Positions 5,725 to 59,607 of a stretch of DNA of 64,000 nt are shown in pieces. This DNA is from Cloeon dipterum (taxonomy: Eukaryota; Arthropoda; Insecta; Ephemeroptera; Baetidae). The translations under genes were made by a program, and so were the position numbers. The notes under the pieces were generated by a model. The model saw only the letters and a program-made list of their open reading frames with translations. It was not told the origin of the DNA and made no database searches. The DNA is taken from assembly GCF_949628265.1 (NCBI RefSeq), contig NC_088786.1:28541681-28605680 (forward strand). The letters are read 5' to 3'. Position 1 is the first letter of the stretch; each line of letters opens with the position of its first letter.

Positions 5725-8245
5725 ATGTCTGACGCGTGGGAAGAAATCCAAGCAATCAAGAACAAGAGGATGAGTCTCAGGGAAAAGCTGCAGAAACGAA
5801 AAAAGGAGATGCAGAACATCCTCAACTCTTCAACTAACTTTGGGACCAGCATAGGTATATAATGACTTTTACGATTTGTTCCATTTACATACTACTATCA
5901 ACTGCTATTGTAGCAATCCCAGTTTTAATTTTTACTTTCTATCATGCGGTCTCATTGAAAATTTTTTTACATAGAGGAAAAACCACCACCAGAGAAAAGT
6001 GGTGGCTCCAGTGCCACAGAAGTGGACGACACTATGAAAGTGGATTCGCAAGTTGAAAATGAATTATTGAGCTACCTTAGCGATGTGGCTATCCAACTAC
6101 CTGTTGACCACTGTCAAGTAGCACAGACCATTAGTGCAAATTTGGGTAAAAAAGTGGTTGAAGAAGTCATTGCTAATTTACTACAGAAATTTTCTGCTCA
6201 AAAACTGATCAGGTAGTTTTCTTTAACTTGAGATAATCAGCTCATTTAAGCTAAAATTTACTTAACAGCATAAATGAGAGAATTATTGAAGGAGGGAAAT
6301 CATTTGAGTTGGTGTCAGTGGAGCACGCTAAGCTTCTGGCTATGACCAACGAGCACAAAGCCAGGAAGAGAAAAGCCGAGGCCGAGGAAGAACTCCGGAT
6401 TGAAGCAGAAAGTAAAGAGAAGCATGCTAGGAAGACTAATGATATCATGGTGATATGCTTGTTTCAACACAAATATATTGACAATTTATTCAAATTGATG
6501 ATTTAACTTTTGTCATTAACGCTTTAATAATATTCTTTTTATGTTTCTTTAAATATAGTCATTGCTCTCAATGCCATCAATCAAAGAACAAGAAAGCAAA
6601 AAGGTTGGCGAGGAAATCTTTGATTTACTGAGTAAAGCAACAGCCAAAGAAAGGTCAATGGCAGAGAAGTTCAAGTCACAAGGAGGTAGCTCTCTTTTAT
6701 GATTTAATTTTTTTTTCAAAGTGTTTGTATTCGCAGGCGCTCAGGTTAAGGAGTTCTGTCCCCATGGTACAAAGGCCGAGTGCGCTAAGGTCAACAGCAG
6801 CGGAGGTTCAGGGCGCCAGTGCTCCAAGCTGCACTTCAAAAAAATTCTGCAGAAGCACACCGACGAAGTGCTTGGTGACTGCTCTTTCCTCAACACATGC
6901 TTTCACATGGACACCTGCAAGTCCGTTAGCCCCTTATCTTGTTAGATATTTTTTTCACTTACTACTAATTGTCAGGTACGTTCACTATGAGGTTGACGGC
7001 GAGGTGGGTGGCAGATCAAGAGACCAGGAGGACGCGGCATCTCTGCAGCCTGCGCGAGAGGCGGCCACCACCCTGTTTCCAGCGCAGTGGATCCAGTGTG
7101 ACCTGAGGTACTTGGACATCAACTTGCTGGGCAAGTTTGCTGTGATCATGGCCGACCCGCCGTGGGACATCCATATGGAGCTGCCTTATGGAACAATGTC
7201 TGATGACGAAATGAGACAACTCGGAATTCCAACACTACAAGACGAGGGACTTATCTTCCTCTGGGTCACAGGAAGGTTAGCAAAATATTGCGTGATTTTC
7301 ATAAAAATTCTACTCCCCTCAGTGTTCTGTATCAGAAGATATAATTTTTCTTAAAATCAAGATCATTTCAAATATAAATTAAATAAAAACTGGGTTTAAT
7401 TACTGTATTAAAAATTTCTAAATGCCCTCAAATTGCGTTAGCTATTTCATCTTTTTATATGAAATTGAACGCAGCTTCTTTGGTGTGAAGCGAACTGTTT
7501 AATTCTCTGTATTCCTACAGAAATGTCATTCTCAACTAGTTTCTGCTCTATTTCCTTTCCCAACTTCGGGCTAGGAATAACTGGGATCAGTAACAAATTC
7601 TCATGTTACATCTTTAAATTTTATTTTCCTATTATTCAACATCTTAAAAAATATTTTTTATTTTAAATCCATGAAACTGAGCAAACTGTGACACTTCTCA
7701 ATCTGTCAGGGGTAGCAGCGGTCACCAATGAATTTTGTTTTGCAGAGCAATGGAGCTGGGCAGAGATTGTCTTAAGCTGTGGGGGTATGAGCGCGTCGAC
7801 GAGATCATCTGGGTGAAAACAAACCAGTTGCAGCGAATTATCAGGACAGGTCGGACGGGCCACTGGCTCAACCACGGTAAGGAACACTGTCTGGTGGGCA
7901 TGAAGGGCAGCCCCGCCAATCTCAACCGCGGTCTGGACAGCGATGTCATCGTTGCCGAGGTCAGGGCGACTAGTCACAAGCCAGATGAGATCTACGGCAT
8001 TATCGAGAGGCTGTCGCCCGGAACACGGAAAATAGAGTTGTTTGGTCGACCCCATAATGTCCAGCCTAATTGGTGAGTTATCCTGCTTTAGATATCCGAA
8101 AAATGAAATTTTCATCTCTCTTAATGACAGGATTACATTGGGAAATCAGCTCAACGGAGTCAAACTGGTTGACCCTGCGCTTAAAAAGGCCTTCTTTGAG
8201 AGGTACCCTGATGGTAACTGTATGGGTCCACAGAAGGCGAAGTGA
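5725..8245 (+). CDS. Mettl3: N6-adenosine-methyltransferase catalytic subunit (METTL3/Ime4)
   Basis: Exons: 5725-5854, 5975-6212, 6269-6449, 6559-6685, 6737-6920, 6976-7275, 7746-8072, 8131-8245. They encode 533 residues. The protein starts [12 protein letters not shown], the conserved METTL3 leader helix. The middle is charged and coiled-coil-like ([14 protein letters not shown]). The CCCH zinc-finger pair follows (CPHGTKAEC through [17 protein letters not shown], roughly residues 235-290). The MT-A70 domain carries the catalytic DPPW in [15 protein letters not shown] (about residue 345). Substrate- and SAM-loop segments such as [22 protein letters not shown] and the terminal [11 protein letters not shown] are also present. 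It methylates adenosine in mRNA in a heterodimer with METTL14, in the nucleus. All catalytic features are intact. It is divergent from RpS20 and convergent with JMJD4. The largest intron (7276-7745) shows nothing recognisable. Confidence 0.98.
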
Positions 8246-10627: not shown

Positions 10628-13600
10628 ATGGACATCAACAAGAAGAAGGTACCTTCGGCAGGGTTTGATTCCTGTAATGTGTTGGCTCTGCCTTCGAAAA
10701 AGATCAAACTGGCCCCGAAGAGGGCCAGGGCATTAGATAAGCGACCCTTTTTGTCCAAGAAAAAACGCAAAGAACTGGAGAAAATAGTTCAAAAAAAGGA
10801 GAAAAAGAAAAAGGTGTGAAATTACATACATGATGCATAACTATTTTTGTCACATGAAAAATTGCATATTTCAGAGAGGCTCCTTGTTAGAAGCACTGAG
10901 CAGCTTTCAGGCGCCTGAGGGTTTGAATTTTGCATCAGTAATTAACCATAAAAAGAAGGCCCCACCGAAAAAGGAAAAAAAGTCTGCTACTGAAAATATG
11001 GAAGAGGATTATGAAGAAGACCTTGAAGAAAGTGAGGAAGAACAAATGGTCCAGGCTCCTGTTGCTGCCAAAGTGCAATATTTGGTTCCAAAGCCAACAA
11101 TGGTCCAAAATGTAATTACGATTTTTTTGACACAGTAAAAAACCATTACAACATCAAAATATATCTTGCAGTTCTGTCAATCTGCAATTGAAACCAAACC
11201 AAAAGCTGCCCCTAAAGTTGAAGAAGTGAAGCAGATTAAAAAAGTTGTGCCAGCAGAAGGAAAGACGCAGAAGGCGGTGTTTGTTCCAGTCAACAGATCA
11301 GAAAGCATGCAGGCTGCAAGAATGAAACTGCCCATTTTAGCTGAGGAGCAATCTATTATGGAAACCATAAATGAGAATCCTGTGGTGGTTATCGCTGGAG
11401 AAACTGGCTCTGGTAAAACTACTCAGGTGCCTCAGTTCCTATACGAAGGGGGTTACGCCAGGTGAGAAATAATCACTATTTATAATCGTACCCTTTTTTA
11501 ACTACGCGTTTTTCCTTCAGCAAAGGCAAGATGATTTGTGTGACAGAGCCTCGGAGGGTTGCAGCAATTTCGATGGCTTCCAGAGTGGCCGAGGAAATGG
11601 GTCTGAGCAGTCGGGAGGTGTCGTACCTGATCCGATTTGAAGGAAATGCCTCGCCTAGCACAAGGATACTTTTCATGACAGATGGTGTGCTGCTCCGGGA
11701 GGCCAGGAGTGACCTCCTACTCTCCAAGTACTCTGTAATCATCGTAGATGAGGCCCACGAACGCAGTCTATTCACTGACATCTTGGTCGGGCTGCTTTCC
11801 AGAGTTGTCAAACTAAGGCAACAAAAGGGAAACCCTCTAAAGGTATTAAAAGTTAATTTTTTATTTAATGGTATCAGCAAACTGATAACAGTTTAAAACA
11901 GATCCTACATTTTGCCAATTTAAATATTTTCCTCTTTGCGCAGTTAATTGTTATGTCTGCAACTCTTCGACTGGAGGACTTCACAGAGAACACTCGATTG
12001 TTCAAAACACCTCCTCCAGTTATAAAAGTGGATTCCCGACAGTATCCAGTGAACGTCCATTTTGCGCGTGAGACTGCTGTTGACTACATGTCTGCAGCGT
12101 ACAAAAAAGTCTGCAAGATTCACACGCAGCTGCCAGATGGAGGCATTCTTGTTTTCGTAACTGGTCAGAAAGAGGTAAATAAACTTTCATATTGTTTACT
12201 TTCATAACAATTGATACCCTACAGGTGAAACAGTTAGTACAAAAGCTGCGAAAAGCTTTCCCTCTGAAGACCCAATCAGAGCTTGAATCACAAGAGATGG
12301 ATTCTGAAAAAGAACAGGAGGAGAAGACCCCATTGGAGTTTGATGAGATTGGCCGCAAAGGTTCAAACCCAAAAAAGAAGAAAAAGAAGAAGAAGAATAA
12401 CGTGTCCTTAGAACCTGTCAATCTTGACTCTTTTGCTGAATCTGCACTAGATGACGAAGCTGCAGGTAACACGGATAAATATCAACGCCTAATTGTTTTT
12501 CCATTGCTAAAATTATTTGCAGATGCACTTGAGGGCGACGATGACGATGAAGACGGTGTGGACATTGATGACATGGAATTGCCAGCGCTGCGGCAGCCAA
12601 TGTGGGTGCTGCCCTTGTACTCGCTGCTGCCTAGCCATAAACAGACCAGGGTGTTCTTGCAGCCTCCTGAAGGTCACCGGCTATGTGTGGTGGCCACAAA
12701 TATTGCTGAAACTTCACTGACAATTCCTGGGGTCAAGTACGTGGTAGACTGTGGTCGCACCAAGCTCAGGAAGTGTGACAAAATTACGGGGGTGTCCACT
12801 TTTCATGTTGATTGGACTTCAAAGGTGAGATTTCTCATTAACGCTTGTAAAAATGATTTTCATGAAAGATGTCGTGTCCCATAAGAAAAAATTAAAAACA
12901 AAACTTTTCATTTAGGCTTCAGCAGAGCAGAGGAAAGGTCGAGCAGGACGTGTTGGTCCTGGACACTGCTATCGACTCTACTCATCAGCTGTCTTCAATG
13001 ACAAGTTGCCTCAGTTCTCAGAACCTGACATATTGAGCAGACCTGTAGACGACCTCTTCCTGCAGATGAAAGCCATGGGCATCGACAAGGTGAGATTACT
13101 TTTTTAACAAGCAATTTAACTCTACAAACTGGAGTTTTATTTTCAGGTTATCAACTTCCCGTATCCTAAGCCGCCAAGTCATGAACAGCTGGAGGCTGCT
13201 GAAGTGAAGTTAGTGCTGCTGGGTGCCCTGGAACCTCCCTCAGAGGGAAAGAAAAGTGCTGGTGGATTGACCCCTCTAGGAAAGGCGATTTCAGGGTTTC
13301 CTGTGGCGCCGCGCTTTGGTAAAATGCTGGCCCTATGCATGCAGCAGAAAGAGCTGATGCCTCACGCTGTGGCCCTGGTGGCCGTCCTCTCTGTCGAACA
13401 ATTGCTTCTCGAACCTGGCAAAGCGGTTAAAGAGTGTGCCTTACACGGCCAAGCCTTGCAGCTCGGTGACCCTGCCATTCTACTCAGGTTACTCTACGCG
13501 AGCGGCAAAGCCCTGGCGCGGGGTGGTGAGAAAGCCTTAAGCGAGTTTTGTGATATACATGCTCTTAGGCTAAAGGGAATAAAGGAGGTGGGCAAGCTGC

Positions 13601-14673
13601 GGGTGCAGCTTACCTCTGAAATCAACCTGGCTCACCCTGAACTTGGATTGTGCATCGACCCTATGCTGCCACCACCCAATGATTCTCAAGTGATTAACAG
13701 AGTCATTTTTTAAGATGGAACCAATACATATTTTTTTGCTTCTCTGAACAGTGTCGGATGCTGCGTCAGATCTTGCTGGCTGGCAGCGTGGACCAGGTTG
13801 CCATGAAAGTGGATCAATTTGAATTAAAGGAGAAGAAAGAAAAGTGGAAATTGGCTTATCGGACTCCCTTGCTGGAGCAACCAGTTTTTCTGTCGGGCGA
13901 GAGTGCTCTGAAGAAGGCCAAGCCACAGTGGGTCATCTTCCAGGAGCTTTTTGAGACTGGCAAAATCATGATGAGAGGTGAATATACAGTGATTTTTTGA
14001 ACGTAGTGTTGAACTTATTTATTTCAGGTGTTACTGTAATTGAGCCAGATTGGTTGACAACCTACGCACCCAGTCTCTGCAGGCTGTCCCCAGTTCTTCT
14101 AGATCCTGCGCCAAGGTTTGACTCAAGGAGCCAGAAACTCATGTGCTGGGTCACGGGAACTTTCGGTAATGTCAGTTTATAGATACATTTTGAGGTTTAT
14201 TTATTTTGTGCAGGTAAGGGTAACTGGGAGCTGCCTCGAATGGAGATCGAGATTCCAGAGGGACCTGAGAGGTACAAGTACCTAGCACTTTTCATTGTGG
14301 AAGGTGCTGTTTTTCCCTCGCTGGCAGAGTTCAAACATCAGCTCATACTAAATACAGGCGTCATGACAAAGAGCTATTCCAGGTATGGATTTTTATTTAA
14401 ACTTTGAACATGGGAAACTTAACTTTTTTACCGTTCACAGTTTAGCCCCCAAGTATGCTACAATGGTGAACCAACTAATGTTGAAACAAGCAGACAGCAA
14501 GCAAAAAATCGAGCAACTGTGGAAGAAGGATCCAAAATGTATTTTTTTATTCAAATTAATTAAAATTTAATTGATTTATTTTTTCTTCCATCACAGATTT
14601 GTTGCAAGCGTTTAAACAGTGGATACCTGAGTCAGCGCACGCTAGAGCAGAAACTCATTGGCCACCTTCCTGA
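10628..14673 (+). CDS. Dhx37: DEAH-box RNA helicase DHX37 (yeast Dhr1, fly kurz)
   Basis: Exons: 10628-10813 (exon starts 10622), 10875-11111, 11172-11461, 11521-11842, 11944-12174, 12225-12465, 12523-12824, 12916-13089, 13147-13689, 13752-13977, 14028-14165, 14214-14382, 14441-14538, 14597-14673. They encode 1077 residues from this ATG. The N-terminus is lysine-rich and acidic. The helicase core has GETGSGKT (about residue 217), [13 protein letters not shown] (about 314), SAT, the DHX37-specific acidic/poly-lysine insert, [11 protein letters not shown] and [12 protein letters not shown]2/OB-like domains follow. The final exon ends ETHWPPS, like other DHX37 proteins. Dhr1/DHX37 releases U3 snoRNA during small-subunit processome maturation in the nucleolus (family knowledge). 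The start is uncertain because an upstream ATG at 10456 is out of frame. Intron 12466-12522 is 57 nt and stop-free in frame. Confidence 0.95.
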
Positions 14674-36866: not shown

Positions 36867-39800
36867 ATGCGGTTGCTAGCTGTTCTCTTCGCAGGTAAGC
36901 AGACATCTCAGACACCTTAACACCTTCGGCTACTCATCGATCTTGTTTACAGCGTCAGCCTTTGCGGCGGCTGGTTACGCTCAAAGTAAGTTCAAGTAAT
37001 GCTCAAGAATTATCGTATCCAGTTGGAATATATCCGGAAAATTTTAAATCCGAATGCAAGTTTAAAACTAGATATTGTTGTAATACTCATTTTGCACCAA
37101 GAATACGTAGTTGTGATTTAATTATTTATTTAATATTTATTTATTACGTAATCACACTGACGAAAATAATTAGGATAGAAAAAGTCTTTACAGTATAGTT
37201 GTGCAACTGTTAAAAATATGTTTTGCAAGTTGATTGCAAAGATATCAATAAATTTAGGATCAGTTACTTCTTCATTAGGGATAATTTTTAATGACCATAA
37301 AACTTCCTAAAACAGCTATTTTTGCTAGTCGTCAAGTAAACTGGACCAACGTGATTTTCTGTTAATGCTATGATTTTTACTTGATACTTTTATTGATATA
37401 TGAGTTTATTTCATATTCGTAGTTCCAAGTCGTGTTTTTCCTGCTGACTCTGAGTTACTTTACTCGTATTTGGGACACATAAGTGCCGGAACAACAGAAC
37501 CGCAAGAATTCCTCTCCCACTTCTCCATCAATGGCAAGCTGCGTGTGCAGACTCTTGTCGAAAAGGCCATATTTAAGGTCACTTTGATTATAATTTGAAC
37601 TCTAGAATATGAAATTAAATTTTTATGACAGTTGGAAGATGTATCGATCAGTGCTTTCAATGGTGAGGGTAACAAACACAAGCTGCCAAAGGGAGAGTGG
37701 ACATCTACACCGGCGCCTTCAGATGCCAATGCCATTTCCGTGCCATTTGTGGCCCTTTACGATAGTGGAAAGGTCGTGTACTTGCCTGCTTTTTATCAAC
37801 ACATTGATTTAAATCAATATTACAGATTACAACCTTGGAGTACGAAACAACTGATACAGTTTGGTCCAAAAATCTGAAAAGAGCAATTGCATCGCAATTT
37901 CAGATCGAGTTAAACCAATTTTCTTCCGATTTACCAAAAGAATTCATTTCTGACGAAGTAAATTAGAATTTCAAGGTTCAACATTCTTGACTTTAACGTT
38001 ATTTATGGTTTTTAAGCTGGGAATCTCAGGCGAGTGCAAAGTTGAAAATATTTTCACTCAAGGGGAAGAAACTGGTACGATATTACTGAGAAAATCGCAG
38101 GATGCCACACGCTGCAAAGGAAAAAAGTTCCTTTATGACAACCTCTCACGTACTAAGTGCAAGTCTGACGCTAAGGTAAATATTCTCTGTCTTTAATGCA
38201 ATAACATATCTGAACATTCTGTTAAAACAAAGAGCCCAATTTCTACGTCAACGGAAAGAACCTACGTCCTTCACGTTAAAGATGCTGGTGTCGAAATAAA
38301 AAAGATCAGGTCGAGGAGTGTCACTTCCTTTCAACCTCTATGGATCAAGGGAGAGTTGCAGTACATTTTTGTTAAGTAAGATGACACACATATGTGCAAC
38401 TTGATTTATATCATTTGACGTATACTATATTCTTTTATTTTATTTTGATATTGCTACCGAAAATAATATTTTTGTAATTTTGCAATATTTAAGAAACACA
38501 ACTTTGATACTTATAAATTATTAAGTGTATAGGTCTTATTGGTTTATGTTTAATTTTTTTCTTACTTGGCACATTGCAGCCAGACAATTGAAGAAAAAAG
38601 CGCGGGACCAATTTCAAACCCAATTGAAGTAGGAGACACCACACCATCTACTTTAGCATTCGAATTCCAGGAGTCTATATCTGGATCAGGACCAGACTTA
38701 ACCTTTGAAAGACATACTATGACGTCTGATATGCTAGTAAAACTGGTAAAAATTGAAAAAAAAAACAATTTTTCTCCAAAAGTTTTCTAAATAAAGTATC
38801 TATATAACAGGCTGAGAAAAGTCTGGTAAAAACAGCCGACCACCTAAACAAAGATCCGGAAGAGAATGTAGATAGCTTACACGACAAAAGCCCATTTCAC
38901 CTGCTGGCATTCATGCAACACCTTGACTACGATGGCCTTAAAAAGCTTAAAGACTTTGCTATGCTTGGTAATCTTTTGTTCCCCGTAAATGCAAATAATT
39001 TTACATGAAGTTTTCACAGGAACGAGCTACAAAGATGACAGCATTAAGCAGCTATTTGTGTCTTACCTATCAAAGGTGGGGACTCGCGCGTCAGTGCTGC
39101 TAATTCGAGATCTTGTGCTTGGACACGAACTGGACGACAAACAGACCATGAAGTTGTTAATTGACTTGCCATTTCATCTGAGATTTCCCAATGCCACTCT
39201 GCTGAAGGAGTTCAATGAATTCCTAAACCTGGATGCTAATCTTTTTGAAAACCATGAGATCCGGAAGACAGCAATACTTACATTCGCCTCAATGGTAGGC
39301 AAAGTGTGTCAGAGCGGTGTTTGTCCGCCAGCTATACTCGATGAATATGTCAAGATATTATATGATCGCCTTAGAGGTAATAAAACGATTAGATCCTCTA
39401 AATTATTCAGATTGAATTAGAATTTTGGTATAGACGCTACCGATTACGGGGATCAAATGATGTACGTGCAGGCGATGGGCAACGTCAGGATAGGTCCGGT
39501 AACCTCTTATTTGGAGCCAATAATCACTGGCAAACTTAACTTCAGTCGACAATTGCGGTATTTAGCCATCTGGGCGGCATCAGATGAGCTGATTGACGGA
39601 AACCCCGAAAAAGTGTGAAAAATACATCTTTTGCTATCTCTTAATTAAGAATATTGAAATTTACTAGGTGCGTGAAATCTTTTGGCCTATTCTGGCAAAC
39701 AGACAAAACGAGCTGGAGCTGCGCAGCGCAGCGCTGACGATGCTTCTGAGATCAGAACCCACAACTCAGCGTTTTATGAATATACTGTGGTTCATGGTGT

Positions 39801-45518: not shown

Positions 45519-47946
45519 ATGAACGATTTGGAGCAACAACAGGATGAGCTCGAAGCCCTGACTAGCATTTACATGGAAGATGAGTTCCAGCTCAACAAAT
45601 CAAAGCCGGGTGGCGTCTTCTATGCCAACATCGAGCTACCTCCCAATTTCCAAGTCGTCTATCGTTTACTGAATAACAAATTTAAGTATCTAACCGCATC
45701 TAGCAGCACTCCAGGTAAAATATTTATTTATAAGTAGTTTTACAATGGCTACTCTCATAATTGGCAAATAAATAATGAAATTGAAATATCAATTTTTGAG
45801 CGACCCCTGTTCCTTTCTTGTTTGTTTGCCAACGTTGTTAATCATTATATCTAAACATAATTTTATAAATTAGGTAAACCCCATACAGTTTTCTTTTTAA
45901 ATATAATTAATCAATTGTTTATTTATATTTAAAGTATTGAAAGATTTATAATTTATTATATATAACACTATGTATAACTTCTTGTTACGTTATTATTTGT
46001 GCAGGAAACACAGAAGAAAATGTATCTCCTGAAGAAAATTTAAAGTTTGAATCGTTCCCTGTGAAGTACTTACCACCAATCGAACTTTCATTTGAGTTGC
46101 CTCAAAATTATCCATCCCAGCAAAAACCTGACTACATTTTGTCAAGCAAGTGGCTAACAAGGGGGCAGGTATGTCACTGAGAATATTCAAAAGATGTTTT
46201 AAATTACAAGATTATACATTTAACAGCTCAGTAAACTATGCACCCAACTGGATCAACTGTGGGAAGAGCAAGCTGGCTTGGAGATTCTCTACGTTTGGAC
46301 CCAGTTCCTGAAGGAGGAAGCACTGAAATTCCTGGAAATCACGTCCTCTCTCAACATCAGTCAAATCTACTCAAGACAGATCACAAATCTAGAGCAAAAA
46401 CGGCTGAAACAGCTCAAAATGAAGCAACCATACACAAAGCGGGAATGTCGGCCAAAAGGAGACGGAGGTCAGAAAAAGGAGGTGAAAAAACCAGATGAAC
46501 GGGCAGTCCTGGATCTGCACGAGTTCATCGTGGCTGCATTGCAGAAGTATGACGAGGAGAGAAATGATGCTGTATTTAAAAAGAGCAACCAAACTTGCAA
46601 TGTCTGCTTCACTTCTAAACTCGGGCAGGATTGCATCCGATTCGATAAATGCGGCCACATATTTTGCAAGGACTGCATCCGTGGCTACTTTGAAGTGCAA
46701 ATCAGGGATGGGCATGTGCAATCTCTAAAGTGCCTTGAGGACAAGTGCGACGTGGACGCCCTTCCGTCCCAGGTGATTTTCCTCTTGCGCTTCCTGCGCC
46801 CTTTCACACCTTTTCTCAGGTCAGACAGGTTTTAAGCGAGGAGACCTTCGCCAAGTATGATGCTGCCCTGCTGACTGCTACTCTGGACACAATGATGGAC
46901 ATCATGTACTGTCCGCGCAAATCATGCCAATACCCGGTCAGTGTGGAACAAGGCGAAAGTATGGGCCGGTGCCCTAGCTGTCAGTACGTCTTTTGCATCT
47001 ATTGCAAGATGACTTTCCACGGGATGGAGCCATGCCGGTTAAAATCGAGTAAGCAAAACTTTAGCATTATTATTTTCTAAACAAATTATTAGATGCAGTC
47101 AAAATTATACTTCTAATTAAGATGGAATGTGGGTTTCTATGAATTTAAGCCAATTAAAACTTTTTTAGAATATTTGAAGTGTGGTTCACATTTCACATGG
47201 CTAAAAAATGCAGGATTCCTGCGCATTTGGTGATTCAGTGACAATTGGAGGCTCAAAAAATTGCCCTAGGTCTTTATTTCAAATCCCCTGTTTTGAATTT
47301 GTGCGGCAAGTCTGTATATCTTCAAGCAGTGGATTTGCCGTTCATTAAAAAATGATTGCTGCAGATAATATTGGAAACATGACTCGCGTCACTATTTTTG
47401 AACAGGTTTAAGGTTTCTTTTCAAATCATTTTTCTGCATTAATGTGTAAAGTGCGTTCTCCAATTAATTGAATCTTTCCCAGATATTGGAATTGCGGAAA
47501 GAGACACTAATCTTTCTTTATATTCAGATGAGCAACAGAGACTGATCAAAGAGTACACAGAAGGAACTGCAGAAGAGAAGTTAGCATTGGAGAAGCGATT
47601 CGGCCGCAGACAGCTCCAGCGCCTTGTGGACAATGCCTTATCCGAAGAGTGGGTGAGCGGCAACAGTCAAAAGTGCCCGCACTGCAACGTCTCCATTGAG
47701 GTTGGCTACTCTCGCAAAGTTTTAGGGGTCTCGTTTAACAAAATTTCGTTACAGAAATCTTCTGGCTGCAACAAGATGACGTGCTGGCGTTGCAACTCGT
47801 ACTTCTGCTGGATCTGCCAGGCTGAGCTGAACCCACTTGCGCCGTACCGCCACTTTAACGACCGAAACTCGCGCTGCTTCAACCGCTTATTTGAGGGCAT
47901 CGCCAATGACGAGGACGAGTTCTTTGCCGATATAGATGACCTGTGA
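45519..47946 (+). CDS. Rnf14: RBR-type E3 ubiquitin ligase RNF14
   Basis: Exons: 45519-45714, 46005-46168, 46227-46772, 46820-47048, 47528-47700, 47755-47946. They encode 499 residues. The RWD domain (about 1-155) starts DLEQQQDELEALTSIYMEDEF. A basic linker follows. RING1 is CNVCFTSKLGQDCIRFDKCGHIFCKDC (from about residue 244). The IBR is YCPRKSC to CPSCQYVFCIYC. RING2 is CPHCNVSIEKSSGCNKMTCWRC, and its GCNKMTC contains the catalytic thioester cysteine region. The end, YRHFNDRNSRCFNRLF plus an acidic tail, is typical of RNF14. RNF14 ubiquitinates stalled translation factors with RNF25 and acts as a nuclear receptor cofactor in vertebrates (family knowledge). The intron 47701-47754 is 54 nt and stop-free in frame. 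The stop overlaps a donor-like CTGTGAGT, so a short extra 3' exon is possible. Confidence 0.96.
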
Positions 47947-48995
47947 GTACCACGCTAAGTAGCTAGTTCTGCCTTCTATACGAAATATGCAATCATCATA
48001 GTGCCCATGTAAAGAATCCATGATATTACGTTGTAAAACCAATCGGGAGTGGGTATTGCCAAAAAATTGAAACAAAATCATAGAGTGGCTATCGGTTTTT
48101 AACCAGTGGAATTATTGTAGATGTAGATAGTCACTATATGTGTGAAAACCTCCTCAAAAAACACAAAGATCACACACAGTTCTTACAATGGGTCTGTTAT
48201 TGGACTCACAAAGTGATTAAAATAAAACACAATGCATTTTATGTGGCAAAATGATCACTTATGATCCCGAGGTTTGAGTTTTTGCAGAGTTTATAATTAT
48301 GCAAAAAGGGGTTTCTTTTATCTATATTACTGTTTTCGTTTATTTACTTTCTTGCTGTTCCACTTATTTTTTTCTAATTTTGCGTTTGGTTCCCCTCGTC
48401 TCTGCAGTGTTTAAAATAAGGTGATGCAAAAATATGTAATTTCCAAAAAAAAAAATCCATAGAGGGAAGTTGTCATGGGTATAGTTTTGCCTGATGTTTA
48501 CCAAACTATTGTTAGTCAATTAGAGTGTTTAAACGGTTAAAAAATCATTAAGAGCAATAATTCTTCAAACGCGAATTGGCGTAATCTGCCACTTTCATTG
48601 GAGTGACAGCTTTTAAAACACATTCTATTTTCATATCTAACAAATTGGATTTTTCAACTCTTTTTATATAATTCCGTATCAGGTGTCGATTGAAAAAAGT
48701 ATATTGCTATTTTGATAATGTGATATTAATTTTAACATCACGCAATGTTTTAAAATTGGTGGGCACTCGTAGCACTAAATGACACGATGCATCCAAAATA
48801 TAAGATACAATTTTGCAACTGTTATCATGCGCGTGAAACACAAAAATTATGATAGCGTATCACTCTTCGACAACACTATTCGTGGGATGCTTGTTGAAAC
48901 TAAAAATAAAGCATGGTGGAATGAATAAAAGTTCAGTTTTATTTGCATAAAAATATCTTTTTCTGCGGGGATCGTGTGCAAAGGAGCGTGCACGC
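47947..48995. other. RNF14 3' flank to nAChR cluster
   Basis: About 1 kb of AT-rich non-coding DNA. An AATAAA at about 48906-48911 could terminate RNF14 transcripts. No coding frame is recognisable. Confidence 0.4.
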
Positions 48996-51900
48996 TTAGA
49001 TGTGGAATGAAATGATCATGATGAGGAACACAAACACGTAGGTAAAAAGGAAGATCCTGTCGATGGCCGTCGCGAAGTGCAACCAGTCCTTGTGGGACAA
49101 GCCAATCGGGCTTGAGATGATGTGCTGCTGGTCGTGCTGGTCATCTGCATTGTCCCTCATTTCCTCTCCCATTGAGCCAAGAGTGCTTGGTTGCATCTGA
49201 GGGAGACGCAAAATTGATAAATTACTATTCCATCAAGTATCGGTAGGGGGAAACAAAACGCACCGACGGCGGCGGCTCCAACAGCAACACGGTGCCCAAC
49301 CAGCCCGACAGCGCTTGCTTGATGAACCAAGGCAATGGATGTGCGCTGTAATTCTTCGAGATTCTGATCACGACGACTGACTCGATCAGCGCGAACGCAA
49401 CCATGGTCAAACATGAACCGTAGAAGAGGACTAGAAGCCAAACAAAAAAGGCTTAACCCTGCGCAGTTAACAATACTTATTGGATAGTTAAAACTTCGAG
49501 ACTTGAAATAAGCGGCATTTGGAAGATGCGCGCAATTTCGTTTTTTAATACGTAATCTTAAATTAAAAATTTAAATCGCAACATTTTTTAGATAAAATCT
49601 TTAAGGATCTAAATCGGAGATATTTTTTAATTCACTCTCCGCAAAAACCATCAAAACTAAATCGTGGAAAAACATACATGTTCACTCTAGATCATTTCTA
49701 TGTTTTGTCCATCTGGGCTGTGTGACTTAATTTCCGTATTCATTTCGGAAAAATTTAAAGATTCGAATTGTAAATTTTATCTAATTTTGGCAGTTTTAAG
49801 TGTTATTCCCATTTTCATAAATTTTAAACATTTTTCATTAATTAATTGGTTTCCAAAAATTGGAAAGTTAAATGAGAAACAAATTTTGCATATCTAATAC
49901 CGCACCATAAACCCCATACTTGCTCCATTCAGCAAGCGATTTTTCCTGTGCCAGATGGTGCTGTCCCCGTCCAATAAAATGTCCCTCGCTAAATCGCACT
50001 ACGCTCGCTTTCACATAAAAAAGTAAATATAAAAAGGACTGTTCCAAAACTCACTGATTAATGGCGGTCTGTAAGCCATTTCTGGCAGTCGCTCGCTGAA
50101 CGACAGTAGCAACATACAGATGATTACGGCAGTCACACCATTCAGAATTATTTTTTCGCCGGCGTGGCTCGGCAGCAGAAAGGCGGCCAAAGTGAGCAGA
50201 ATGACCACTGCGAACATGGATCAGCTCTCACAATCAGTCGATTGTTGCGTTTATTGCGCCCCTTGTGGGCTCTCACCTGTGGCCGGCGTTATGACGACCG
50301 TCCTATACGCCTCGGACCGCCTCCTCATGGTCAGGGTATAGGTGATGTCGATGTAGCCCTCGGTGCAGCACGGGTAAAACTTCTCGTTGCGCCTTTTCTC
50401 GACACTCAAGATTTCCCACTGCGAGTTGTTGTGTAACATCTCCAGTTCTGCTTCGCCTTCTTCGATTTGAAGATCGATCTGCTCGCCATCGTAGGTCCAG
50501 GAGCCAAGCGTCAGCGAGCAGGTCTGCGTGTCGAAGGGCCAATAGTGCAGATCGATCTGGCAGAAGGCGTGGAATTCGGCCGGAGGTACCCACAGCACTT
50601 GGCCGCTGTCGTAGACAAGGCAGTGCGTGTTGCCGTAGTGGTCGATTTCGCTGCCCTGTGCACTGAAAAGTCAACATGACCTGAGTAGAACATCCTGAGG
50701 TTTTATCCAGTTTTAATTAAATTTTTAAAGGATTCCGCCTTCTCTAAATTTGAATTCTGCTCGATCAATTTTCGTGTTTAGCATACCTGTTGTACAGTGT
50801 AATATCTGGCTGCCACACTTCATGATCAGCGAGGTGTAATAAATTTATGTTCTCATAATCTGAAGCGTTCCACCGCAATTTTTCGTCGTTCCATACCTGG
50901 AAAGGTCTGAGCAATAAAATCAAATAAACTCTTACTTCCAAATTCAATTGTAAACCTTGGCAGATTTATAGCCCTCTTCCCTGGAAGCAACTCTAGTTAT
51001 TTCTTATAATTTTTTTCATGTTTATAAATCGCGTAATGCAAATTGCCGGTAATTTGCGTGTTATGTTCAGTGCGCAGCCCTCTAAATAAACATATTCCAG
51101 GCGCACACTGTATGTGCGTGCGTCGACGTTCTCTCCACATTGAATCAAATTACAGCGTTAATGGGGGTTTAGGCAATCAAGCAATAATCTTCACTATTGC
51201 CGCCGCTGTTGCTGCTGCTGCGAAACACCGGATGCAGTCCAATCTCTCAAGCCGCAGCATGACAATAGTTTATTGAAGAGGAAAAAGCGAGGGTGTAACA
51301 ATATTGTTTTAGCTGTGCGTTATAGTGCTTTCCAATATTTTTTGACACTGCTCCCACTTATCATGCAAACGTATTGTCCAGGGTAAGGACAGAGTTTTAT
51401 CGCAAGGCTATCAGTTGCAGGCCGAACGTTTCAATGAGTTGGTGTTTAATTTCCGCCAAGAGAAACGCTCTATCAGAAATAATATTACACCCACTCTCCA
51501 ACAGCAGATAATTTATTGCAAAACTGTTTGAGTCATATAAAACTTTATGCTTATTTAAACATTTTACGATACAGCAAAATAGCGATGATTATTCAATAAC
51601 CTCTCTGGTATTTATCAATTTAGGGATCACAAAGGTCACTCACCATTTTAGCCCAGACGTAAACAGTGAAAATCGACGACATTTCGTCCTGAAAAAGAAA
51701 AAAAGCGTGAACCTCTTTTTCGGTGGGGCCCGTTTGCGTCTTAAGTGCATCATTGTTATGCATTTTGGCCTTTGAATGCAGCGAGCGTCATTAAGTTTCG
51801 AGGCGGCCAACAGTGTGTGGCCCTCGACCTACCAGATCGATATGTTTGAAATTCAGATCAATGTTGACCACAGTGGTGTTGTTATGATGAGCCGGCCGAG

Positions 51901-52100
51901 TGAATTTGTCGTAATGCGCGAGCAGCTCGTGCTTCAGTTTGTCCATCACTGTGTGATTCCACAAAGTAGGCCCTCCTGTGAAAAATTGGGCCACGTGTCC
52001 AGCTGAAAGGCGATTATTTGCGATTCAATTACTTACCCGTTCGCGCCGACTGGGCCGAGACCATGAGGGGCAGCACAAAGAACGTCAAGAGACCGTTCAT
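48996..52100 (-). CDS. Divergent nicotinic acetylcholine receptor subunit A
   Basis: Exons in order: 52037-52100, 51833-52002, 51644-51688, 50787-50896, 50277-50662, 50055-50207, 49264-49430, 48996-49196. They encode 431 residues. A signal peptide (MNGLLTFFVLPLMVSAQS) is followed by the ligand-binding domain with WQPDITLYN (loop A), the Cys-loop CQIDLHYWPFDTQTC with 13 residues between cysteines, GSWTYDG (loop B), and FYPCCTEGYID (loop C, vicinal cysteines as in alpha subunits). M1 is VVILLTLAAFLLPSHAGEK. M2 reads IILNGVTAVIICMLLLSFSERLP. M3, a short M3-M4 loop and M4 (YVFVFLIMIISFHI) follow. Exons of 45 and 110 nt are the classic nAChR pair. Pore positions 2', 6' and 9' are Ile, Val and Val instead of the usual Ser/Thr, Ser/Thr and Leu. 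The left-most of three tandem genes. Confidence 0.92.
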
Positions 52101-52994
52101 TTCGGTGGTCTTGCGGTCCACGCGGCGACCGAAATGAAAATGAAGAGAGCGCGCGGGAGGATGAGTAGGAGGCTTTATCTCGGAACGGCGGCCGCTCTCT
52201 ATTATGCGTCTCGCTGAAGAGATGCAGAGTCCCGCAAGGCTGCTTGCCGACTGAATATGTTTATCATTTTTCAGTGAATACGTTGTTGTGTCTGACACGA
52301 GGCGACAGTGGCAAAAGGGGATTTCGCACGCACTCGAGTGTGTGCTGCGTGCGTTTGTTTTTTCCAATTGATTTCCATTTGTGTGTCGCTGATATGTGAG
52401 GTGGTCCTGGAATTAGGATATGCGCATCAAGCAAAATTTAAAAAAGGGTCTCCCGCCGGACTGCAGCCGATAAAGTGGTCGCTTTCGTGCTTTGGTGACT
52501 CGCTCTAGGTGTGATTCGAGCTGAGACTTATATAACTTACAACACCCCGCAGGAAAATATGCTACCGTGTTTTGGCAGCTCTCTATTGTTGCTCCGCGCT
52601 GGGCTAAAAAGCTTTTCCTCGTATGGTACAGAGACAGGGCAGGGGAAAGTACAGGCGGCAAATTAATCCTCCATTTTTTATTAACGTAAACACTTTTGAA
52701 ACACTTTTTTGCTTGATTATTTGCACAATGAGAGAACCTCGATCTTTACTTATTTTGCGATTTTATAGCCTTTTCAAAATCAAATTGGTAAAACTTGTCA
52801 TTGCATTAAAATTTATAGTGCGCAAATCTTTTCAACTGTACAATTCAACAAAATTGCGACGCAAAATTTAAAACTGCGCGAGCACTAAAAAAGTATTGTT
52901 CCGAAGTATTGAATATTTTCTACTTATATAAATTTATTGATTTTTAATTTTTAGTACTCCTCTTAATCAAAATTTGGAAAATCTTCGCATCTGC

Positions 52995-54991
52995 TTAGAC
53001 CATTGCGTAGAAACAAAAGATTTTCAGACTGTACAAAACAGCGTAAACTACAAAGAAACATCGGTCCAGTGCTACTGCAACTTGATGCCAGCCTCCGTTT
53101 GACCCAGTTCCTTCTAGCACCTCTCCAAACGAATTACTTGTATCAACCTATAAGTAAACATTTTTAATCGATGCATCTATTTCAATAAGTTTTTGTACTA
53201 ACCTTGCCGATGAACAACGCCTTGTTCACAATCGTTGGAAAGTTGACAGTCCCGTTACTATTGGACAATTTTATCACCAGCACTGATTCGCAAAAGGAGA
53301 CGACGGTCATCAGCAGGAAACAGCCAAAGGAGAGTGCTGAAAAAAATGAAACTCCAAACTCTGAGAGTATGATCGCAAGAAATTTTACCAATTTTTGGTG
53401 GCTTGTACGTTAGCGCGGGGAGTCTCTCAGCCATTGCGTACAAGACAAAGCAGATGAAAATTAGATTAACCGAGTTGACCATTATTTTGATGCCCGAGTG
53501 AGTCGGCAGGAGAAACGCAGACAACGATAGCAGTGTCACTAAAATAAATTTCAAACTTTAGACGTAAAAAGGAAATTAAACACATTTTAGAGGCTAATAA
53601 TTGCAACTAAATGACAACCCAGAAAATTTTATCCAATAAGTTGCTTGAAAGTAAAAAATAATAAAGCTCAGTTTCCTAGATTGCATCTAAAATCACCACT
53701 GCAGAAAACTGCTGGGAAATTCAGTTTCACTCAAACAAAATCCTATCTGTAATGTGTATATACAAAAGCTATTTTTTTTAATTTAACCTCGTAAATAACG
53801 TTAGTAATCATTGCATTTATTTTACGGCAAAAGTCGTATGTCCCGCTATTTTTTTTATTTAACAATGAAAAATTTAAAATTTAGTAGCTCTGGGTGAGCA
53901 ATTTTACCAGTGATCATAGCAAGCATTATGCCAGTGCAGAAGCCTTCCGACCGCCTCGCCATGTGCAACGTGTAGGTGATGTCAATGTACGGCTCCGGAC
54001 AGCAAGGGTAGAACTGCGAGTTGCGCGCCGTGTCCACGTTGGTCAGCGCCCACTCCGCATTCTTTGTCACCAGATCCAACTCGATAGACTGGCCTCCGGT
54101 TTGCAGATCGACATGCGAGCCGCTGTAGCTCCACGAGCCGAATTTCAGTTTGCAGGTCTGAACGTCGAAGGGCCAGATTTTCAGCTCCAGATCGCAGAAG
54201 GACCGGAACTTTGCTGGCGGTACCCACAGGATGCTGCCGTCGTAGTGGACCACCATATTCGAGCTCCCGTAAGTACCGATCTCACCCGCTTGAGCACTTA
54301 AAATTTTTCGTATTGTCAAAATTATTTAGCTCTCATTTGTCAACCAAGTGGATCAAACAAATAGTTCTGAATATTGTTTGTAAAAAATTTACTAGGCACT
54401 TTTTAATATTTCATTTCAAAATTTAAAATTTGAAAGCTCAGAATTAACATAATGCTGTGACTTGAAAAGGACAAAGTGTTACCTGTTACAAAGGTAGATA
54501 TCCGGCTTCCAAATTTCTTGCTCGTCAAAGTGAATACTTTTAATGCCACCGAATTCGTTTGGGTCCCAAGCCAATCTTGCATCCGACCATGCCTGTTTTA
54601 AATTAAATAGTTACAACACAGATTAGACAAAATAGAGGATTTACTCACCATCTGCACCCATCCGTGAGTTGTCAGCTCTGATGTTATCTCGTCCTAATGA
54701 AGTAATCAATTTTACCGTATTTTAAACTCAAATGTGAATATTACCAGATCAACGTGTGTCAACGTCATGCCAAAGGTGATGGTCGTTGCATTGACTGCTA
54801 GATTGGGCCTGGCGACCCTGTCATAATGCTTCAGCAGCGTAGACCTGAGAGAGTCCCCTGCAATATCTAAGCAGTGAATATTAAAAAATATATATAACAA
54901 AGAAATAGAGTTCTATACCTGTCCTTAAAGCTACGCTCAAGTTCAGCAGCGTAAATACGCAGAGCAATGCAAAGTGGTATCCAGCAGTCAT
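52995..54991 (-). CDS. Divergent nicotinic acetylcholine receptor subunit B
   Basis: Exons in order: 54919-54991, 54745-54857, 54649-54693, 54483-54592, 53908-54296, 53389-53538, 53203-53336, 52995-53147. They encode 388 residues, short for the family because the M3-M4 loop is very small. The signal peptide is MTAGYHFALLCVFTLLNLSVA. The Cys-loop is CDLELKIWPFDVQTC, loop B is GSWSYSG and loop C is FYPCCPEPYID. Two changes are striking. Loop A reads WKPDIYLCN, with Cys in place of the ligand-contact tyrosine of LYN. The intracellular M2 border reads SGIK instead of SGEK, losing the -1' glutamate. M2 is IMVNSVNLIFICFVLYAMAERLP, with Ile at 9'. Exon lengths of 45 and 110 nt and all phases match subunits A and C. 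Likely an accessory or otherwise altered subunit. Confidence 0.9.
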
Positions 54992-55445
54992 TGTTGTTGG
55001 CGACTTAATGCTCTGCTCGCAAATGATTGTGGAGATCCGTCCGCCAATTATTATACGAGGCAAGGGGGACGTTGAATTCACATATTAGTTAATGAGGGTT
55101 ATCATTTGGAGGTCTCAAGTGCGAAGTATAATGCACTGCATAACATGGCGTGTATGCCTATTGAGGCTTCTGGGTGTTGCGACAATTTTTATTGCCAATA
55201 TTACTCGATTTTTACACACTGTGGACCCTCCTTCCATTTGGACTTAGGAAAGTCTAATTCCTCTCTTACAATTAATTGTTTTTTGGCATGGAGGTTTTAT
55301 ATTGTTTTGAATGGCCAATAGCAAATTGAAATTTAAAAATGGGTTTGCTTTAGTGAGCATACCAAAAATTTAGCGGAATAATATTTTTTATTCAATACAA
55401 ACAGTTAACAATGAAAGAATGTTTTCATAGTATATTTCCCGCCCT

Positions 55446-58400
55446 TTACAAGACGGTGACGTAGAAAGAAATAATCTTGATGAGGTAAATCAAAAAGTAA
55501 ACAATGAAGAAAATTCTGTCGATAGCCGACGCAAACATAATCCATTCCCTGTTGAACTCCAAAGTGGAAGTTTCAGCCTGGCCTTTGCTGCTCAGTTCCT
55601 CATCGTTCGCCTTCTTCTGAACCTGCTGGAGAGAACTTGACTGTAACAACGGTATTTTTTGCAGTACTATTTCATTACGGAATTCTGGCCGTTCAGGATT
55701 AAAGAACCAAACCAGCCGGAGAGAGCTTGCTTGATGAATGGTGGTAGTGGGTGTGTACCGTAATTTCGGGAAATTTTTATCACCAGCGTGGATTCGAAGA
55801 AAGCAATCGCCGTCATCAGTAGGCATGATCCAAAGTACAGAACTAGAAACAAGAGTTCATTTTAATGCCAAGATAGAGACGAGGAATTGGACTTTACCAA
55901 TCAGAGGAGGATTCGATGCGATTGCAGGCAGTCTCTGACCCGCATCATACAGAAGGTAGGTAATTATGACCGCAGTGATTGAGTTTAAGACGATTTTTTC
56001 TCCGGCATGGGTCGGCAGGAGGAACGCAGACAAGGATATAATGATAATCACTGCAAAAAAATATGTTTAAATTTTACACAAAAAATTACTTAGTCGATTA
56101 TAAAATCTAATACTATAACCATAAATTCATTGAATATTCTAATGTGGTTGACACCAAACAAAAATTTCTATTGATTGAAGATTTATATAAGAATCTGAAT
56201 CGAGTGTATGCAGCCTGCGCGACGCATACGCTGCGCGGCTTGCATAAATTCAATTTACCAAACACGGGCGTCATGATCAAAGTCTTGTACACCTCGCTCC
56301 GCCTCTGCAGGTTCAGGGTGTAGGTGATATCTGCATATAGCTCCTCGCAGCAGTCGTATTTCTTTTCGTTCAGCTGCTCGTCAACATTGACCAAGTCCCA
56401 CTCATCGTTGGGAATCATAATTGCCGGCTCACGCCAGTTTTCCCACGGCTGCAGTTTGATTTGTCCGATGTGGTGTGTCCACGAGCCGATGACAATTTTG
56501 CACGACTGTCGATCGAACGGCCAGAAGCGGAGATCCATTTTGCAAACGGTTTCGTAGATGGATGGTGGGACCCACAGGACGGAGCCATTGTTGTACACAA
56601 TACTGTACGTCGTTCCGTGCTGGTTGATTTTATTGCCGATGGCACTATAAAAACAAAACAAACAATCCCTCATTTTAGGGCAATAAATTCCATTTTTATA
56701 GGGCAACAAAATAAAGGTATATTTGAACATCTGAGGGAACGTCTCTCACATCATACAAGTGAGAAAATACAATTATTATTGAGGGCTGGAAAATTTAGGA
56801 GATATATATTTATCTTGTTATATTTGATAAATAACATTAAAAAGGCGAAATCTATGCCGTATTTGAACCACACCTTGAATTGTCTTATAAGGTCTGAAAC
56901 GTCAAAAATCAATACACGTACTCTAAAGCTAGCAAAATCGTGAAATAAATCTTAAAAATGTTCAAAGAACCGTAAAAAATATTGCCTACTGCTTGAAACC
57001 CTCCATAAGAAGATTAAAAGTTCTTAATTCCCAGTTATTTCCAAGAAAAGCAATCACAAAAATAAATTTTAAAGCAATGTTTAAAAAAAACATCAAAAGC
57101 AGTCTAAAAATATATTAGCTTTTATGAAAATAATTTAAAATGTGAACCTGTTGTACAGCACAACGTCAGGAATCCACAGCTCATTGTAGGGCACGTGCAG
57201 GGCTTTCAAATTGCTGTAGTTGTCAGGATTCCAGCGCATCTTTTGGTCTTCCCAGTTCTAAACACCGGCGAATACAAAAAACGATTATCGCTAATCAAAA
57301 CGGGCCACAAATGATATATAATGGCTTTGAAACGCTGTGGCCTGACTACTGCAGATTGTTGTAAAGGTCACATTGACATCTGGACTAAGTGCTATGCGAA
57401 TTTAGCATGCACGTACGTTGGAAGCTCTGGACATTGTATGCACGCACGCAGGGAGGAAAAGATCAAACGCACGATGGAACTATAATGTACTTATTGGTGG
57501 CTGCTCTCATTGAGGATAATGGACGCCTGATTGTGATTTACTGAACACTACTGCCTCGCATGTAATTATTGTTAGCGCACTTTGTGTGCGAAATTGAAGT
57601 GCTGTCAAGAGCGAGCTGTTTGCAAATGATAATATCCTGCCTCGCGGGCTTTTATTTCGCGACTCGGCCACCGTGTTGAATGCGCAATAATTGCTTTCAG
57701 CTGCCGTGCCGTGCACGCACTTTGGTCAAATTTGACTTGCTAATGGTTGGAATATTAACTCACGAATCGCGACCATCCGTTGACAGTTAGCCTCGAAGTT
57801 GCGTCACACTGAAACACGCAAACCACAAATTAAACGTCACAGATTCTTAACATCATTTTTACGGAAATGTAATTTTTTAACGAGTGTATACAAACCACAG
57901 AAAAATGTGTGATGGTCAAACCGAATAGCACGGTCGTTGGGTTCGTTTCTTCACTTGGTCGGATAGTTTTGTCATATTCGTTTTCAACGAACAACAGCTT
58001 CTTCAACTTTTCTGCCGGAGTTTTCGGGATTGGATCTGAAAGTAAGAATTAACGATGAAAAATTTCCTGAAACAAAACAAAATTAAGGTTTGAGGTGATA
58101 AAAATTTCATGATTGAATTGTGTTTGTGATTTTTCCATATATTTCATTTCTCATATATATTAGAGAAATAAATAATAAATTTAGATTCAAGAATTCATTT
58201 TTGGGTTTGAATCAATTCACACCGTTCCTCAAAAATGAATAATTTATAGGGCGCTTATAAAAAATATATTCATGTTCGTTAAACAAACACAATTTTTAGT
58301 TTTTTTAAATTGGCTAGGGAGAATTCAGTTGAAAAACTATTTATGGAAAACAATTATTCATTAAAATTCATGAAAAATAAACAAATGTAAAAATACAAAA

Positions 58401-58664
58401 AATATTTGAATCACTCTCTTTTTCCTGTTTAAAATCTTGCCAGAATAAATAATATTTGTCAAGTTGCTTTAACAAATAAAATTAATCATTTTATAAAAAA
58501 ATGACCACTAAATTATGGAAACCCATAAGGGGCAAATTTCTTAGGAAACATAAATCAGCAAAAAGCATGTTGAGAATAAACAAAATCTCACCATCTGCGA
58601 GAACAAGTGCCAGTGCTGCACACGCGAAGAGGAGTTGAAGGACCCAGGAGAATGTGCGGTCCAT
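55446..58664 (-). CDS. Divergent nicotinic acetylcholine receptor subunit C
   Basis: Exons in order: 58592-58664, 57896-58035, 57764-57808, 57148-57257, 56259-56644, 55898-56050, 55679-55842, 55446-55625 (alternative acceptor at 55622). They encode 416 residues from MDRTFSWVLQLLFACAALALVLA (signal peptide). An in-frame ATG at 58709 is possible but would bury the signal. Loop A is WIPDVVLYN and the Cys-loop CKMDLRFWPFDRQSC. Loop B is GSWTHHIG, with His where an aromatic/Ser/Asp is usual. Loop C is YDCCEELY, keeping the vicinal cysteines and both tyrosines. M2 is IVLNSITAVIITYLLYDAGQRLP after AGEK; 9' is Val and 20' Gln replaces the usual Glu. The M3-M4 loop is short and M4 is present. First gene in transcription direction of the tandem array. 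Confidence 0.91.

Positions 58665-59567: not shown

Positions 59568-59607
<40 letters not shown>
59568..59607. repeat. (GA)n microsatellite
   Basis: About 40 bp of uninterrupted GA on the plus strand. Confidence 0.95.

Follow-up and report, generated by a model that had tools for sequence, protein, structure and literature searches.

Three tandem alpha-type nicotinic receptor subunit genes with apolar residues at M2 positions 2', 6' and 9' in the mayfly Cloeon dipterum

Introduction

The nicotinic acetylcholine receptor (nAChR) subunits of Tribolium and other insects comprise nine core groups, in which alpha4 has an alternative exon 4 and alpha6 has three copies of exon 8 (PMC2064938), together with divergent subunits, which show low identity to the core groups and vary in number and type among species (PMC2064938; PMC4647701); passages of these and of the other papers cited below are the basis of what is said of them here. 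For arthropods, five core groups and two divergent groups have been described (PMC7419010), and the divergent members listed include Drosophila beta3, Apis alpha9 and beta2, Tribolium alpha9 and alpha10, and Bemisia beta2 (PMC4647701). In this study, we analyzed a tandem array of three nAChR subunit genes of the mayfly Cloeon dipterum, which lies within a stretch of 64,000 nucleotides (nt) (assembly GCF_949628265.1, contig NC_088786.1, positions 28,541,681 to 28,605,680; hereafter the window, whose positions are used throughout). The genes, named A, B and C from low to high coordinate, are intact and encoded on the minus strand, keep an alpha-type binding site and carry apolar residues at three positions of the pore helix M2.

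Several traits of divergent subunits are on record. In Drosophila beta3, the TM3-TM4 loop is extremely short and the extracellular C-terminal domain is missing (PMC8505678). The GEK motif is replaced in Tribolium alpha9 (PMC2064938), by KDR in Aethina alpha9 (PMC7017565), by MER in Bemisia beta2, by STR in Bombyx alpha9 and beta3 and by TIR in Bombyx beta2 (PMC4647701). The mayfly genes resemble this group in their low identity to core subunits, in their position outside the core groups and, for B, in an altered entrance to M2; as in Drosophila beta3, the M3-M4 linkers are short (A 67, B 38 and C 61 amino acids, aa) and only 30-33 residues separate the start of M4 from the end of the protein, leaving no extracellular tail (helix borders chosen by hand). 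Unlike Aethina alpha9 (KDR) and Bemisia beta2 (MER), A and C keep GEK, and all three proteins keep the YxCC motif of loop C; in the published passages, a replaced GEK is no precondition for belonging to the group. Judged by the published descriptions of the named members, A, B and C fit the known divergent group of insects as alpha-type members; they are real and unusual, and not a new kind of subunit.

No statement on M2 residues 2', 6' and 9' of such subunits was found in the passages, figures apart, of PMC2064938, PMC7017565, PMC8505678, PMC4647701, PMC7419010 and PMC8803171. Among the matches listed for mayflies, the phrase 'nicotinic acetylcholine receptor subunits' was absent, and those listed for nAChRs of Cloeon dipterum concerned, by title, insecticide toxicity or ecology.

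Results

Pore residues of A, B and C

The residues at M2 positions 2', 6' and 9' are Ile, Val and Val in A, Met, Val and Ile in B, and Val, Ile and Val in C, as a first-pass annotation made from the letters of the window had read them. Over the rings -1', 2', 6', 9', 13', 16', 17' and 20' the series is E I V V M L S E in A, I M V I F Y A E in B and E V I V Y Y D Q in C, the last with Tyr13', Tyr16' and Asp17'. All three genes share Asn4' and have Thr or Asn at 7'. The glutamate at -1' is kept in A and C and lost in B, where GIK stands in place of GEK, and the glutamate at 20' is kept in A and B and replaced with Gln in C. From G-2' to P23' the three sequences align without gaps with core subunits, and A does so as well with the Torpedo-type and alpha7 chains of the PDB; by alignment, the M2 register is safe for all three.

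Nine other nAChR loci of the same genome (n1-n9) served for comparison. Position 2' is polar in eight of them (n3 has Ala), position 6' in all nine, and 9' is Leu in eight (n4 has Ile). None of A, B and C has a polar residue at 2' or 6' or a Leu at 9', which sets them apart from the ordinary nAChR pore (Fisher p = 0.018 for 2', 0.0045 for 6' and 0.018 for 9', with small numbers and related sequences). The 'hydrophobic pores' of that annotation are thus confirmed at 2', 6' and 9' and not for the pore as a whole, since the charged rings at its ends are partly kept. Separately, the alpha4-like core locus n4 (L019 5963-6103, minus strand) combines Ile9' with His12', where the other core loci have Leu9' with Thr or Val12'.

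These residues would mislead if the modelled exon 6 were a minor form and another, canonical M2 exon existed. The alpha6 gene of this and of other insects does have alternative M2 exons. When the window was scanned end to end in six frames with a profile of A, B, C, n1, beta1 and human alpha7 (open stretches of at least 15 aa), only the three modelled exons were recovered (E at or below 3.6e-27, scores that are partly so by construction), the next best match having an E of 0.18; a spare canonical exon in the window was rejected on this ground, and we regard a wrong exon as extremely improbable.

The agonist-binding face

All three proteins have 13 residues between the cysteines of the Cys-loop and a YxCC motif in loop C (YPCC in A and B, YDCC in C), both as previously annotated, and they retain the arginines that precede M1. 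In the alignment, the aromatic cage, which we take to consist of the loop A Tyr, the loop B Trp, two loop C Tyr and the loop D Trp, is complete at five of five positions in A and C and at four of five in B, whose loop A Tyr is a Cys; B also lacks the Pro of M1. Exon 5 of A holds in a single piece loop E, the Cys-loop, loops B, F and C (YPCC), the pre-M1 arginines and the start of M1.

The Pfam family Neur_chan_LBD matches A at 6.5e-60, B at 6e-58 and C at 3.9e-50, and Neur_chan_memb matches A at 5.1e-15 and C at 6.9e-13; the latter family gave no match to B at 1e-3, and B can be aligned along its length with A and C. Human alpha7 nAChR was the top match of A in a PDB search (2e-63). It shares the binding-loop anatomy of A, B and C and the gap-free M2 alignment, and it differs in Ser2', Thr6' and Leu9' and in a membrane domain that is only 22-24% identical (A 24%, B 22%, C 23%). 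These results support the identification of the array as one of alpha-type nAChR subunits in tandem.

Selective constraint

Whole-protein identity is 40% between A and B and 44% between A and C. The binding domains are 39% (A), 40% (B) and 36% (C) identical to that of human alpha7; for the four of nine core loci compared (n2, n6, n8 and n9), identity to human alpha7 is 40-59% in the binding domain and 49-61% in the membrane domain. Between A and C, the membrane part (M1-M3 and the following helix) is identical at 68 of 114 positions (60%) and the binding domain at 94 of 235 (p 0.0006), and M2 from 0' to 23' is 58% identical. For the pairs among the three genes, dN lies between 0.51 and 0.64 for the binding domain and between 0.34 and 0.52 for the membrane domain, and dS ranges from 1.54 to not calculable. 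From these comparisons the membrane domain is read as remodelled and selected, and not as decaying.

The opposite explanation, that the pore has drifted under relaxed selection after duplication and that the genes are on the way to pseudogenes, could draw on the low identity to the core subunits compared and on the loss in B of E-1', of the loop A Tyr and of the M1 Pro. At 56-60% protein divergence from A, however, not one of the three genes has a stop, a frameshift or a broken splice site, dN lies well below dS, and the membrane domains of A and C are 60% identical. The pseudogene reading was rejected for these reasons; drift of the pore is very unlikely and already largely refuted.

Another explanation is a non-ionic role, in which the proteins, at the membrane or secreted, would act as ligand sinks or as parts of adhesion or signalling, with M2 merely holding the pentamer together. 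Such a role would agree with a binding face that is retained while the polar 2' and 6' rings are lost in three of three genes, and with the absence of a Pfam match at 1e-3 for the membrane part of B. The largely retained E-1' and E20', and an M2 as alike between A and C as expected of a working pore, speak against it, and we consider it improbable.

Gene models and array layout

The models were assembled exon by exon from the DNA, with both strands of the region read (Table 1). Each gene has an open frame from ATG to stop; all 21 introns are GT-AG, and in all three genes the exons end in phases 1,0,0,2,1,1,0. The segment 48996-58664 is bounded exactly by the stop of A and the ATG of C. In every gene, exons 3 and 4 have 45 and 110 nt, respectively, and exon 5 measures 386 or 389 nt. 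The annotated picture of three eight-exon genes in one orientation with matching phases, the 45-nt and 110-nt exons included, is thereby borne out. An AATAAA follows each stop; of 100-nt stretches drawn at random from the region, 10.7% contain this signal.

Table 1. Coordinates of the array in the window; M2 positions were counted by hand from the start of exon 6.
Feature	Position	Strand	Remarks
Gene A	52100-48996	-	8 exons, 422 aa
Gene A exons	52100-52037, 51975-51833, 51688-51644, 50896-50787, 50662-50277, 50207-50055, 49430-49264, 49196-48996	-	
Exon 5 of A	50277..50662	-	equivalents: B 54296-53908, C 56644-56259
M2 of A, 0' to 20'	50092..50154	-	exon 6; K IILNGVTAVIICMLLLSFS E
AATAAA after A	48938..48943	-	53 nt past stop
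Gene B	54991-52995	-	8 exons, 388 aa
Gene B exons	54991-54919, 54857-54745, 54693-54649, 54592-54483, 54296-53908, 53538-53389, 53336-53203, 53147-52995	-	
M2 of B, 0' to 20'	53426..53488	-	exon 6; K IMVNSVNLIFICFVLYAMA E; G-I precedes instead of G-E
AATAAA after B	52933..52938	-	57 nt past stop
Gene C	58664-55446	-	8 exons, 420 aa
Gene C exons	58664-58592, 58035-57899, 57808-57764, 57257-57148, 56644-56259, 56050-55898, 55842-55679, 55640-55446	-	
M2 of C, 0' to 20'	55935..55997	-	exon 6; K IVLNSITAVIITYLLYDAG Q
AATAAA after C	55387..55392	-	54 nt past stop

Other nAChR loci of the genome

Family searches of the genome returned at least 76 binding-domain and at least 56 membrane-domain hits to exons, each exon being counted separately. 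None of the membrane-domain hits fell inside A, B, C or the further divergent genes D and E described below, so that the divergent genes are visible only through the binding domain. The nine core-like loci were modelled from exon pieces and their proteins are partial. Contig C2 contains three of them within about 180 kb (33.89-34.08 Mb), C5 contains two near 22.2 Mb, one with two copies of exon 4, and C3 contains one; two alpha7-like loci lie on C2 near 19.5 Mb, one with three copies of exon 8, and beta1 adjoins them. By our own assignments, the nine loci fit the nine core groups of insects. Five further places with binding-domain hits (L010, L014, L015/16, L017 and L018) look like other Cys-loop channels by the pieces seen. 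The second alpha7-like gene, n7 (L031/L032, C2 19.46 Mb), contains two M2-type exons, and alternative exon 8 may thus extend beyond the alpha6-like n8 to n7.

Four more divergent nAChR-like subunits were recognized as two tandem pairs. D1 and D2 lie on C2 at 23.65 Mb (L009 3895-6362 and 6995-9393, plus strand); each has a 45-nt exon, a short M3-M4 linker and no YxCC, and the last exon of D2 was picked by hand. The more divergent E1 and E2 lie on C4 at 16.45 Mb (L013 8044-6640 and 6311-4764, minus strand), with four exons each, a GC-AG third intron in both models and W-P-H-D in the Cys-loop. Both pairs resemble A, B and C in a W-P-[FYH]-D Cys-loop, in the position of an M1 intron, in the short M3-M4 linker (34-68 aa across all seven divergent subunits) and in their tandem arrangement, and they differ in having neither YxCC nor GEK and in other exon fusions. 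The M2 register appears less sure for D and E, where gaps are needed; in an alignment of this kind D1 has Thr6' and Leu9', unlike A, B and C.

Placement and origin of the array

Phylogenetic analysis was performed on 17 rows, none of which was dropped: the seven divergent subunits, the nine partial core proteins and human alpha7. The split between A-E and the ten other rows had support of 100/99, and the grouping of D with E 100/100. Grouping A, B and C with n6 was rejected (p-AU 0.0014), as was grouping them with n7, n8 and human alpha7 (p-AU 0.0005). They accordingly stand outside all nine core-like loci, which are those of this genome and partial proteins. Placement in a conserved subunit group, which the first-pass annotation had proposed as a test, thus came out as a position outside the core-like loci (100/99) and inside the divergent category of insects.

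The three genes as one clade were weakly supported (62/34 against the 14 other rows), as D and E attach nearby, and A, B and C could be paraphyletic to D and E. In trees of the single domains D and E still fell beyond A, B and C, at lower support; the binding-domain tree carries a warning of long branches that meet, and in the membrane-domain tree A pairs with B and not with C. A single origin of A-E is backed outside the tree by two characters. The Cys-loop reads W-P-[FYH]-D in seven of seven divergent subunits against F-P-F-D in nine of nine core loci, and a phase-1 M1 intron lies three codons past the Pro in A, C, D1, D2, E1 and E2 (six of seven) and one codon later in B. An intron of this type occurs in none of the nine core loci: their pieces span M1, except in n6, where the break is at another point. 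The seven divergent subunits in their three tandem clusters appear to trace to one ancestor, provided that the tree is rooted among the core subunits.

Local duplication of A, B and C had been proposed in part from the shared 45-nt and 110-nt exons. Both exons are also present in the core loci n1, n2 and n3; they are therefore ancestral and silent on the date of the duplication, and they were rejected as a mark of it. The proposal itself stands on the adjacency of the genes, the exon 5 lengths of 386/389 nt and the 60% membrane-domain identity of A and C.

Neighbourhood

The window has a G+C content of about 41%, and 20 of its 84 open frames were scanned with Pfam. Open frames matched the C-terminal domain of TAF8 (3720-4319, minus strand, 4.3e-20) and part of an MT-A70 domain, as in METTL-type RNA adenosine methyltransferases (6725-7351, plus strand, 1.1e-13). 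Fragments of Helicase_C (4.6e-06) and HA2_C (4.6e-07), as in DEAH-box helicases, were found at 12192-13710 (plus strand), and a Vitellogenin_N fragment (4.7e-10), an exon of a lipoprotein-type gene, at 38989-39417 (plus strand). About 2 kb from the array, 46278-46832 (plus strand) gave a weak RING-finger match (8.1e-05 at best), with one of five families slightly past its cut-off. A run of GA dinucleotides lies at about 59568-59607, some 0.9 kb upstream of the ATG of C.

Discussion

We read A, B and C as intact genes of the divergent group whose products would be agonist-binding accessory subunits that alter, and probably lower, the conductance of mixed receptors, a reading to which we assign a probability of about 0.45. 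The analysis shows the gene structure, the residues, the place among the subunits of this genome and the constraint. That the genes are expressed, that their products co-assemble and that conductance is altered we infer, and at slightly less than even odds we place accessory subunits ahead of channels sufficient in themselves and of roles without ion flow.

The principal face for agonist binding is kept, with its vicinal cysteines, its full cage in A and C or four-fifths of it in B, and its pre-M1 arginines. The membrane domain, by contrast, is remodelled in our reading, with Ile, Val or Met at 2', 6' and 9', a short M3-M4 loop and no tail. The subunits would co-assemble with core subunits or with one another as agonist-binding accessory subunits, and where they line the pore they would stretch its hydrophobic girdle from 9' down to 2'. 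In a pore made largely of these subunits, apolar rings reaching to 2' would raise the barrier to ions and favour the shut state, and mixed receptors would thus pass less current, or current that is differently gated. A functional parallel may be offered by the vertebrate beta3 subunit, which has a natural Val9', was reported as dominant-negative and becomes gain-of-function with V9'S (PMC4022547). The likeness lies in Val9' and an accessory role and implies no special kinship; vertebrate beta3 is a beta subunit, unlike the alpha-type A, B and C.

Several points weigh against the accessory reading. In Drosophila, qvr mutants are without a brake on nAChR activity and lose sleep, a defect that is reported to be rescued when either beta3 or alpha3 is knocked down (PMC8505678); this suggests that a divergent subunit adds to activity rather than silencing it, and it led us to lower our confidence in the accessory reading from 0.5 to 0.45. 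Drosophila beta3 mutants are still sensitive to almost all insecticides tested, and the gene is transcribed less than other subunits (PMC8803171). Human beta3 promoted the function of alpha6beta4, which disputes the dominant-negative reading there (PMC4022547), and GEK is altered outside the divergent group too, the core subunit alpha2 of Bemisia having REK (PMC4647701). Within the mayfly sequences, Asn4' and Thr or Asn at 7' could face the pore if M2 were rotated, the substitution of Val or Ile at 9' is mild and conservative, with Ile9' also in the core subunit n4, and the retention of E-1' in A and C and of E20' in A and B suggests that cation conduction still matters. Between A and B, moreover, there is no excess of membrane-domain identity (44 of 110 against 95 of 229 positions, p 0.81).

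Some of these points lend themselves to a different view, in which the three subunits form conducting heteropentamers that gate unusually, on their own or adding current with core subunits, and serve a specialised cell type; apolar residues at 2' and 6' would then be tolerated through a wider open pore, a rotated helix or alternating subunits. The complete cage of A and C, the mostly retained E-1' and E20' rings and the stronger conservation of the membrane than of the binding domain between A and C are as such channels would have them, and so is the effect of Drosophila beta3 knock-down (PMC8505678). The adjacency of the three genes is a further argument, clustering of alpha1, alpha2 and beta2 having been suggested to aid co-assembly (PMC2064938). 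In a pore of A, B and C alone, by contrast, none of the rings at 2', 6' and 9' would be polar, and B is without E-1' as well. Conducting heteropentamers are a possible, though unlikely, outcome. Long odds apply to a bolder proposal, that A, B and C make up a dedicated acetylcholine-binding pentamer, a tandem unit in which a hydrophobic seal from 2' to 9' was fixed by selection and ordinary conduction is absent, the receptor being a non-ionotropic ligand sensor or a dominant silencer.

In our judgement, no part of the nAChR family of insects is less well understood than the divergent subunits, and insect nAChRs are targets of neonicotinoids. The seven divergent subunits of this mayfly, in three clusters, let separate change of the binding site and of the pore be traced, YxCC being present in A, B and C and not in D or E. 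With a binding site that is kept and an apolar pore that is shared, A, B and C form a small natural experiment in which conduction, silencing and mere scaffolding by such subunits could be told apart.

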